A stretch of 56,552 nt of DNA, from contig CALXDU010000003.1 in NCBI GenBank assembly GCA_944387145.1, forward strand, positions 1-56,552. Direction: 5' to 3'. Made by a program: the position numbers and the translations under genes. Shown in pieces: positions 50,048 through 52,304 of this stretch. The stretch comes from an uncultured Oscillospiraceae bacterium. GTDB taxonomy: Bacteria; Bacillota; Clostridia; Oscillospirales; Oscillospiraceae. Numbering within the stretch: position 1 is the first letter of the stretch; each line of letters opens with the position of its first letter. The notes below the pieces were generated by a model, which saw only the letters and a list, made by a program, of their open reading frames with translations, ran no database searches and was not told the origin of the DNA.

Positions 50048-50064
50048 AATTTTCACCTCCGAAA

Positions 50065-50166
50065 ATAAAAAGTGTCTTCCTGCCAGAAGACAGAAAGACA
50101 CGCAAATCATTCCATTTGACGCACCTCGGCAGGAATTACGCTTTGCAGCACCTGCTGTCTTTGGCA
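50065..50166 (-). promoter_or_regulatory. L10 ribosomal protein leader
   Basis: The leader before rplJ contains CCAAAGACAGCAGGTGC and, further on, CCTGCCGAGGT, the conserved halves of the Rfam L10 leader. This RNA mimics the L10 site on 23S rRNA and lets L10(L12)4 repress its own operon. A second hairpin, GTCTTTCTG/CAGGAAGAC, comes before the ribosome site. Confidence 0.88.
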
Positions 50167-50174
50167 ACTCGTGT

Positions 50175-50203
50175 ATGATATCAGATTATTATGAAATTGT
50201 CAA
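50175..50203 (-). promoter_or_regulatory. rplJL promoter
   Basis: TTGACA (50203-50198) and TATCAT (50180-50175), 17-bp spacer. Confidence 0.8.
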
Positions 50204-50261: not shown

Positions 50262-50897
50262 TTACAGATTTGCCGATGCTTCCGGTTCTTTCTTGGAATT
50301 TTCCACAACCTGGCACACAATGTCGGCACACTGCTGGATGCCCAGAACACCGGTGTCCAGACAAATGTCATAGTTCTGCGCCTGGCCCCAGGTACGACCG
50401 GTGTAATGCTGGTAATTTACCCGACGGCGCTTATCCTTCTCCTGCAGACGGGCCTCCGGGCTCTTGTCAGATTCACCGTAACGGCGGACAATTCGGTCGG
50501 CACGGAAGGGGATATCCGCAAAGACGTACACATGCAGCGCATCGGGACGGTCTTTGAGTATGTAGTCGGCGTTGCGTCCGACGATGACACAGGGGCCTTT
50601 TTCCGCCAGCTGCAAAATCACGCTGCACTGGATGTTCCACAGAAAATCAGCAGTGGACAGTCCGTTCATCACACCGGGGACACCCTGGTGGGCGAAGGCG
50701 TAGGAGAACAGGCTGCTGCCGGGAGAGTGCTCACCATTTTCTTCCACAAACTTGGGAGCAAAGCCGGATTCCAGAGCGATCTGGTCAACCAGCTCTTTGT
50801 CATAGAAGGGAATTCCCAGCTTTTCCGCTACCAAATGGCCAACAGTACGACCGCCGGAGCCAAATTCACGGCTGATGGTAATGATTTTCTTTTCCAT
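50262..50897 (-). CDS. Cytidylate kinase-like P-loop protein
   Basis: A 211-residue protein of the cytidylate kinase-like group (AAA_26). Residues 5-18 read IITISREFGSGGRT, with a P-loop variant; PFYDKELVD and CVIVGRNADYIL follow. True CMP kinase has a different length and NMP domain, so the substrate is unknown. AAAGGAGG precedes the start; single-gene unit. Confidence 0.87.
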   Translation of the reverse strand: MEKKIITISREFGSGGRTVGHLVAEKLGIPFYDKELVDQIALESGFAPKFVEENGEHSPGSSLFSYAFAHQGVPGVMNGLSTADFLWNIQCSVILQLAEKGPCVIVGRNADYILKDRPDALHVYVFADIPFRADRIVRRYGESDKSPEARLQEKDKRRRVNYQHYTGRTWGQAQNYDICLDTGVLGIQQCADIVCQVVENSKKEPEASANL

Positions 50898-50941: not shown

Positions 50942-50970
50942 ATTATAGACAAACTGCTTTCTGTTGTCAA
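50942..50970 (-). promoter_or_regulatory. Promoter of the cytidylate-kinase-like gene
   Basis: Perfect TTGACA (50970-50965), 17 bp, TATAAT (50947-50942). Confidence 0.85.
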
Positions 50971-51006
50971 TAAAAGAGTAGCCCCGTTGGTAATTTTGCT
51001 CAATAT

Positions 51007-51040
51007 GTCCTGCCGCCGGGGGAAGAGGCGGCAGGACAGG
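51007..51040 (-). terminator. Strong hairpin after the 52-aa gene
   Basis: Minus-strand TGTCCTGCCGCC/GGCGGCAGGACA, a 12-bp perfect stem directly after the stop at 51042. The T tract behind it is poor, so it may also stabilise the mRNA end. Confidence 0.7.
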
Positions 51041-51041
51041 C

Positions 51042-51200
51042 TTATTGAATATGCTCTTCCGGGAAATTATCCTGGACCAGAAATCCCATTTTACCGGGGT
51101 CTGGAATTCCGGATAATTTCATGCCCCAGCTGTCAAACTGGGAACAAAGGCGCATTTCCGGATTTACCCGGAAGCAGTCAGGAAGTTGGTTTTCCAACAT
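51042..51200 (-). CDS. 52-aa small protein of unknown function
   Basis: ATG at 51200 has AGGGGTG just upstream, and the frame ends at TAA 51044-51042 right before a strong hairpin. The product starts MLENQLPDCFRVNPEM and continues with LCSQFDSWGMKLSG, then IPDPGKMGFLVQDNFPEEHI. Its Pro/Gly/Asp-rich, non-repetitive composition looks like a real protein rather than a chance frame. It lies 93 bp after asnA on the same strand and may share its transcript. No family is recognised. Confidence 0.68.
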   Translation of the reverse strand: MLENQLPDCFRVNPEMRLCSQFDSWGMKLSGIPDPGKMGFLVQDNFPEEHIQ

Positions 51201-51293
51201 ATCACCCCTGTTTCAGCATGCCCGAAAAGCAACTGCATTACCCGAGCCTTTTGCTGGAATCCGGGGGAAAAGGGGAAAACGAGGAAAATTTTG

Positions 51294-52304
51294 TTACAGC
51301 AGGGGAATGCCCGCCTGCTCGCAGGCCTCTACCGTTTCGGCATCCCAGACGCTGGACTGTACTTCGCCAATGTGAGCACAGCCCATCATCAGCATGGCAA
51401 GCCGGGACTGTCCGATACCGCCGCCGATGGTCAGAGGCAGTTCGTTATTGAGCAGCATTTTATGGAAGGGAAGTTCCCGGCGGTTGTTACAGCCGGATTC
51501 CCGCAGCTGGCGATCCAGGGACTGGGCGTCTACACGGATGCCCATGGAGGAAATCTCCAACGCCCGGTCCAGAACTTCGTCCCAGAAGAAGATATCGCAG
51601 TTCAGATTCCAGTCGTCGTAGTCCGGCGCCCGCCCGTCGTGGGGCTTGCCGGAGCGAAGCTTTCTGCCGATTTGCATGATGCAGGCCGTCTTATGTTCTT
51701 TGACATAGGCTTTTTCCCGCTGGGAACCGGTTTCCAGGTCCGGGTACAGGTCTTCCAGCGCTTGGGAAGTGATAAAGGAAACCTCCCGGTTCAGCTCCAC
51801 CCGAAGCTGGGGGAAACGGACATGCAGCCGGTCATTGGTATCACAGATGGCCCGGACAATGGCCCGGACAATGAGCTTTAAGTATTCGGAGTTCCGGTTT
51901 TCCTGGGTAATGATTTTCTCCCAGTCCCACTGATCAACGTAGATGGAGTGAACGTTGTCCAGTTCCTCATCCCGTCGAATTGCGTTCATGTCGGTGTACA
52001 AGCCGTTGCCAATGGTAAAATTGTACCGCTTCAGGGCCAGACGCTTCCATTTTGCCAAGGAATGTACCACCTGCGCATCGGTACCTACAGCGGGAATATC
52101 AAAGGATACTGGGCGTTCGTATCCATTGAGGTTATCGTTCAAGCCGGAGTTTTCTGTGACAAACAACGGTGCGGATACACGCTTCAGGTTCAGTGCTTTG
52201 GAGAATTCTTCCTGAAAGGTGTCTTTGATGTAAGCAATGGCCCGCTGGGTATCGTAAGCATCCAGGATTGGTTTGTAACCCTGAGGAATATAGACTTTAT
52301 TCAT
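51294..52304 (-). CDS. asnA: Aspartate-ammonia ligase
   Basis: A 336-residue enzyme that makes asparagine from aspartate and ammonia with ATP. It is related to class II synthetase catalytic cores. Visible marks are SAPLFVTENSGLNDNLNGYERPV, the DMNAIRRDE stretch, SIYVDQWDWEK, and the C-terminal GGGIGQSRLAMLMM. Promoter TTGATT-N16-TACAAT lies about 35 bp upstream. Length and motifs are standard. Confidence 0.96.
   Translation of the reverse strand: MNKVYIPQGYKPILDAYDTQRAIAYIKDTFQEEFSKALNLKRVSAPLFVTENSGLNDNLNGYERPVSFDIPAVGTDAQVVHSLAKWKRLALKRYNFTIGNGLYTDMNAIRRDEELDNVHSIYVDQWDWEKIITQENRNSEYLKLIVRAIVRAICDTNDRLHVRFPQLRVELNREVSFITSQALEDLYPDLETGSQREKAYVKEHKTACIMQIGRKLRSGKPHDGRAPDYDDWNLNCDIFFWDEVLDRALEISSMGIRVDAQSLDRQLRESGCNNRRELPFHKMLLNNELPLTIGGGIGQSRLAMLMMGCAHIGEVQSSVWDAETVEACEQAGIPLL

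Follow-up and report, generated by a model that had tools for sequence, protein, structure and literature searches.

SASPs and the minor small spore proteins are short proteins of the forespore, and small genes situated behind promoters for sporulation sigma factors were reportedly described in a different organism in 2010. In excerpts of two publications, CsfB/Gin is presented as a small forespore anti-sigma factor of Bacillus subtilis (PMC4383634, PMC5890618). The small-protein families of microbiome catalogues form a further point of comparison, as the family described here is, like those portrayed in parts of the GMSC (PMC11364881) and sORFdb (PMC11796252) papers, short, conserved and without domain annotation; an extract from the former states that only 6.1% of the small-protein families of GMSC have CDD domains.

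In the current study, a short open reading frame (ORF) was analysed within a window of 56,552 nucleotides, this being the whole stretch of contig CALXDU010000003.1 from an uncultured Oscillospiraceae bacterium that was examined (Table 1). On the comparative evidence this ORF is a genuine protein-coding gene. It belongs, as a divergent member, to an unnamed family whose proteins comprise approximately 50–60 aa, and we predict, with a probability of roughly 0.75, that it is a real gene expressed in the forespore under the control of sigma-F/sigma-G. The forespore-type promoter of the family had no part in the original prediction and is the best-supported addition to it.

Table 1. Positions of the small gene, its putative signals and its neighbours in the window
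Feature	Positions	Strand	Basis
Cytidylate_kin2 gene, downstream neighbour, outside the unit	50262..50897	minus	PF13189, E 2.8e-51
Perfect sigma-A-type promoter TTGACA-N17-TATAAT before the next gene	50942..50970	minus	12/12 matches
12-bp hairpin (12 Watson-Crick pairs), 3 nt after the stop, without T-run	51006..51038	minus	folding
Stop codon TAA of the small gene	51042-51044	minus	ORF list
Small gene; 52 aa if begun at ATG 51200, perhaps 51 aa (TTG 51197)	51042..51200	minus	ORF list, orthologues, profile matches, dN/dS
Ribosome-binding site GGGGTGAT of the small gene	51201..51208	minus	sequence
-10-like element CATGCTG, forespore-type (sigma-F/sigma-G)	51214..51220	minus	family counts per position
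GGG just ahead of the -10-like element	51221-51223	minus	
-35-like element GGGTA, 18 nt from the -10-like element	51239..51243	minus	window score 9/11
asnA (aspartate-ammonia ligase), upstream neighbour, outside the unit	51294..52304	minus	TIGR00669, 314 bits

Concerning known families, searches of Pfam and NCBIfam with the window protein and 52 aligned members, and of PHROGs and PDB sequences, yielded no credible relative; isolated matches to known families were each confined to one member, the best having an E value of 0.013, and a literature text search with three motif strings of the family gave no match. The family differs from the SASPs (alpha/beta type) and the minor small spore proteins in its acidic core (median pI of the small family 5.55), its conserved Cys and its conserved tail, while the SASP model PF00269 did not match any of the 52 members at E values up to 0.1; SASP genes often possess a similar upstream element, albeit farther from the start. 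The Gin model PF10764 likewise matched none of the 52 (E up to 0.1), and in a search for co-occurrence with CsfB/Gin the control genomes were silent too. What likens the family to CsfB/Gin is the notion of a small forespore protein, and CsfB/Gin is a possible model for a partner-binding regulator. As opposed to the small genes of the 2010 report, the present family is known from computation and was unseen outside the order in 398 genomes of the phylum. The idea of a phage or plasmid accessory gene found no support: none of 91 pattern matches in viral contigs was confirmed, and one member had no tblastn match at E 0.01 in plasmid and phage collections.

A search with the 52-aa protein sequence produced matches in 19 of 99 relatives, its own genome included, the closest named records being those of Candidatus Faecousia faecavium and two uncultured Oscillospiraceae. 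A profile of the family matched 34 of 136 genomes of the window’s genus (15 of 40 among the good genomes of the genus), and all 34 matches reach the last position of the model and are free of internal stops; four of these carriers yielded no locus and their sequence was left unread. A search of Oscillospirales genomes had been proposed as a check; among 394 genomes taken as a sample of the order, the profile found homologues in 33, a figure that includes one doubtful partial match (G220; E 7.7e-4, 25 residues within a 408-codon frame) that was excluded from all alignments. The phylum sample of 398 genomes, some of which belong to the order, contained two profile matches, both within the order and one of them in the window’s own genome. 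The gene is present as a single copy without internal stop in every carrier.

The original prediction had named synonymous-biased conservation in relatives as the property on which the gene would stand or fall, and this bias was observed: comparison of the window gene with three near orthologues gave dN/dS values of 0.06, 0.09 and 0.05, and over 563 family pairs pN/pS was 0.27 in the true frame as opposed to 0.41–2.44 in the other five frames. Because dN/dS is low and pN/pS is lowest in the true frame, the gene withstood this test. The claim of a likely real gene is thus borne out by its distribution and by dN/dS, which indicates strong purifying selection, whereas its exact length of 52 codons is less secure. 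So short a gene may easily escape notice, as the original prediction held. An orthologue in genome G058 has the TTG and lacks an ATG at the corresponding start position, and for 35 of 50 members a distance of 16–18 nt separates the end of the -10-like element discussed below from the start that was chosen, while in the window this element lies 16 nt from the TTG and 13 nt from the ATG. Since G058 has only the TTG and the family spacing fits this codon, a product of 51 aa starting at TTG 51197 appears somewhat more likely than one of 52 aa starting one codon earlier. The good ribosome site that had been claimed is indeed present, and 46 of 59 members of the family have a GGTGA no more than 20 nt from their start.

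In total, 60 distinct 3′ ends were collected for the family, and in 54 of these exactly 42 codons separate the conserved Arg from the stop. One of the 60 members, L096, is cut by the end of its contig; of the other 59, for which a start is present, 52 entered alignment A2 (seven identical or near-identical sequences being omitted), and alignment A1 comprises 17 of the 19 protein matches (two identical proteins being omitted). The consensus of the 52 members reads ...RLxPExRLCPxFDxxSIxxFxxAxxxEMGVRVLDNCAEEHIM, and the conserved core and C-terminal tail can be written as RLxPExRLCPxFD...MGVRVLDN[CF][AP]EEH[IM][MQ]-end, within which one Pro, one Val, one Asp and one Glu are invariant. All 52 members share the C-terminal end column, EEH[IM][MQ] being exact in 40 and represented by near variants in 12, and the clade of the window diverges near the tail with DNFPEEHIQ. 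The median length is 55 residues; the N-terminal part is slightly basic (median charge +1) and the 42-residue core acidic (−2). A structure model of the protein, built with four near-identical sequences, had a mean pLDDT of 50.5 and was too poor for use. One member (L074:4895-5188, minus strand) carries a Gly/Pro/Phe-rich N-terminal extension of approximately 40 residues ahead of the conserved core.

The strong hairpin that had been placed directly after the stop codon was recovered, although it lacks a T-run. A 65-nt fold after the stop has an energy of −27.3 kcal/mol (z −3.55), which none of 200 shuffles equalled, while a 60-nt fold with a cruder shuffle gave a z of −1.8 and a terminator pattern scan returned no match at this hairpin. 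Across the family, folds of the 60 nt that follow the stop have energies below −12 kcal/mol at 48 of 52 loci; at 28 loci z is under −2, and six have a T-rich tail. Such a strong hairpin behind so short an ORF might suggest a non-coding RNA or an ORF arisen by chance, but this is contradicted by the low dN/dS and the frame-specific synonymous bias, as well as by an amino-acid conservation that spans five families of the order and ends in a single C-terminal column, and we regard it as barely conceivable.

The neighbours of the small gene are not conserved across most genera (45 regions), and no neighbour is fixed across genera. In 11 of 46 regions, every one of them from the window’s genus, the Cytidylate_kin2 gene follows downstream within approximately 620 nt, which led us to reject a general functional link to it, and asnA is located within approximately 1 kb upstream in five of 46. 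A Pfam scan of 20 hand-picked neighbouring ORFs at 16 of the 45 regions, in which five ORFs had no match at E 1e-5, identified, among others, L17, homoserine O-succinyltransferase, MATE, an ABC transporter, TrkA, NUDIX, HerA, thiamine pyrophosphokinase and a cation ATPase; membership of a conserved operon was rejected, the neighbours being unrelated and mostly of a housekeeping nature. Since the kinase gene has its own sigma-A-type promoter, it and the small gene look like separate units, and because the neighbours vary and the fold follows the stop, the unit would comprise promoter, ribosome site, small ORF and hairpin. The locus is a single-copy and probably stand-alone gene for a soluble protein of 51–52 aa from an undescribed family seen only in this order. 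Elsewhere in the window, a ribosomal protein L10 leader (RF00557, 63.4 bits; 50057-50182, minus strand) is situated, as is ordinary, ahead of what appear by eye to be the L10 and L12 genes, and a tRNA gene (RF00005) occupies positions 143-215 of the plus strand.

Close ahead of the start, the family possesses a promoter-like element of the form GNATA-N17/18-CATACT[A/G], and in the upstream regions GGGCATACT[G/A] lies close ahead of the ribosome site. Promoter statistics were based on 50 of the 59 upstream regions, after removal of those at least 75% identical. A near relative, L116, stood in for the window in this set, and the window was scored separately, its imperfect copy (GGGTA-N18-CATGCTG) reaching 9/11. 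Every one of the 50 non-redundant regions has the first A of the -10 element; the C and the T of its CT are present in 48 each, and a G occupies each of the three positions ahead of it in 35–36. A perfect CATACTR was found in 19 of 59 family upstream regions and in none of 278 other ORFs. With the GNATA block placed at a spacing of 16–18 nt, a two-block score of at least 9/11 near the start was attained by 30 of the 50 members, the remaining 20 scoring 8 or less. The same score was reached by 4 of 278 other ORFs, by 8 of 2000 Markov sequences and, among 102 ORFs whose ribosome site is strong, by one; this comparison is in part post hoc because the pattern was written after the family had been viewed. 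Less open to this bias are the controls with spoIIR and gpr (see below) and that on spacing, for which the -10 positions were set blind to the -35 block: GNATA (at least 3 of 4) then occurred at a spacer of 17 nt in 18 of 50 regions, of 18 nt in 11 and of 16 nt in six, while any of the remaining spacers between 8 and 29 nt accounted for 0–4.

The same element was sought at the known forespore genes spoIIR and gpr, at SASP genes and at a mother-cell gene of the same genomes, using a score of at least 9/11 anywhere in the 110 nt upstream, a measure by which the small gene scored in 31 of 50 cases and other ORFs in 14 of 278. An ORF with a start was found at 21 of 25 SpoIIR, 18 of 18 GPR and 16 of 24 SASP loci, and the element preceded 12 of 21 spoIIR genes (9 of 16 in a narrower first ORF search), 10 of 18 gpr genes, of which a few starts look internal and therefore wrong, and 12 of 16 SASP genes, none of which scored above 9. 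In the window’s own genome, spoIIR is preceded by GTATA-N18-CATACTG, a score of 11/11. The small gene hence shares its promoter-like anatomy with spoIIR and gpr. The element is rare before spoIVA, a mother-cell gene under sigma-E, for which 2 of 14 genes scored, a share that does not differ from background (P 0.17); an ORF with a start was found at 14 of the 25 spoIVA loci, just one of which (L234) is from the window’s genus.

Expression in the mother cell, governed by sigma-E or sigma-K, has to be weighed against this pattern, as the -10 elements of these factors also begin with CATA and the CATACTAT of some members resembles such boxes. In excerpts of one study (PMC3789822) the -35 element of sigma-E is described as an ATA motif, which would suit this explanation, and sigma-F promoters as having a conserved G before the -10, to which the runs of G ahead of the family’s -10 element correspond. 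With the element common to many spoIIR and gpr genes and rare before spoIVA, we consider control by a mother-cell factor quite improbable. Expression in the forespore is in keeping with partial accounts according to which SpoIIR is a sigma-F-controlled forespore protein and gpr of C. difficile is sigma-F-dependent (PMC3789829). Passages of PMC3789822 further describe a conserved A after the -10 of sigma-G promoters, and an excerpt of PMC7438776 reports promiscuity between sigma-F and sigma-G; because different members show features of one or the other factor, the element is called forespore-type and no choice is made between the two.

With regard to the wider sporulation context, spoIVA was found in all 33 carriers as compared to 351 of 394 genomes of the order (P 0.019), a co-occurrence that amounts to weak support since nearly all genomes of the order have spoIVA. 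The sigma-G model matches all 43 high-completeness genomes of the genus, 39 of them with one match of approximately 369–398 bits, though none exceeds the curated cut-off (457 bits) and the model is unspecific, matching 10 of 14 control genomes as well; co-occurrence with sigma-G within the genus was thus set aside as uninformative. Since the small gene is patchy in a genus in which all 43 match this model, it is not needed for sporulation in general. This patchiness (34 of 136 genomes), together with the imperfect promoter copy of the window, would suit a small gene of vegetative cells whose upstream motif is the site of some other regulator or a conserved feature of the leader, but such a gene would leave unexplained why the two blocks concentrate at a spacing of 16–18 nt and why both also precede spoIIR and gpr. 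Moreover, the sole sigma-A-type match on the minus strand between 50800 and 51400 is the one that precedes the next gene, and we judge vegetative expression to be unlikely.

Some further observations were made on sporulation loci. At six of the 25 spoIIR loci (L192, L194, L195, L199, L205 and L209), the forespore -10 box lies within an arm of an inverted repeat of 8–11 bp, and a T-rich stretch comes after this repeat, close ahead of the start of spoIIR; the repeat is perhaps the terminator of the upstream gene overlapping the promoter, or else regulatory. In addition, gpr (PF03418), the gene for the protease that degrades SASPs, was found in one of eight genomes of the genus tested (G000 and seven others) and a SASP match in seven of the eight, that of the window’s own genome covering just 28 of 59 positions; the protease gene may have been lost or replaced in these genomes, or be missing from their assemblies.

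When 13 genomes were scanned with the strict pattern, 19 sites were obtained as opposed to nine for a backwards control; two of the 19 were the family’s own gene and most others were not at obvious spore genes. At L161 (G036 C83), the forespore-type pattern lies 24 nt before a gene with a strong ribosome site that was named rubrerythrin-like by eye, and rubrerythrin is listed under sigma-G control in C. difficile in an excerpt of PMC3789822.

From these data we infer that sigma-F/G drives a monocistronic transcript and that the forespore is where the protein acts. With sigma-F and/or sigma-G as its forespore sigma factor, RNA polymerase would transcribe the small gene from the putative -10 element; because this element ends 13–16 nt before the start, the leader would be very short and would hold the ribosome site, and the hairpin after the stop may end or protect the message. 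If a forespore sigma factor does transcribe the gene, the small protein would therefore be made in the developing spore. As to what it does there, our guess is that its conserved core and C-terminal tail serve to bind a partner and that it acts as a small regulator or adaptor rather than by coating DNA. That the family represents a lineage-specific forespore regulator, of a new partner-binding kind of approximately 50 aa (anti-sigma factor, protease adaptor or enzyme inhibitor), is a possible but doubtful extension of this guess, under which the protein would control a step of spore development in some members of this order of gut bacteria by means of its conserved C-terminal tail.

Many Oscillospirales are known from assembled genomes alone, and homology is a poor guide to small spore proteins that are specific to one lineage. 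Given a better matrix, which is desirable because the strict pattern is too noisy, the pattern GNATA-N17/18-CATACTR could assist in listing further forespore genes in this group. The family described here, being conserved and having a forespore-type promoter that can be read, represents a concrete and testable candidate for such a spore protein in Oscillospirales.
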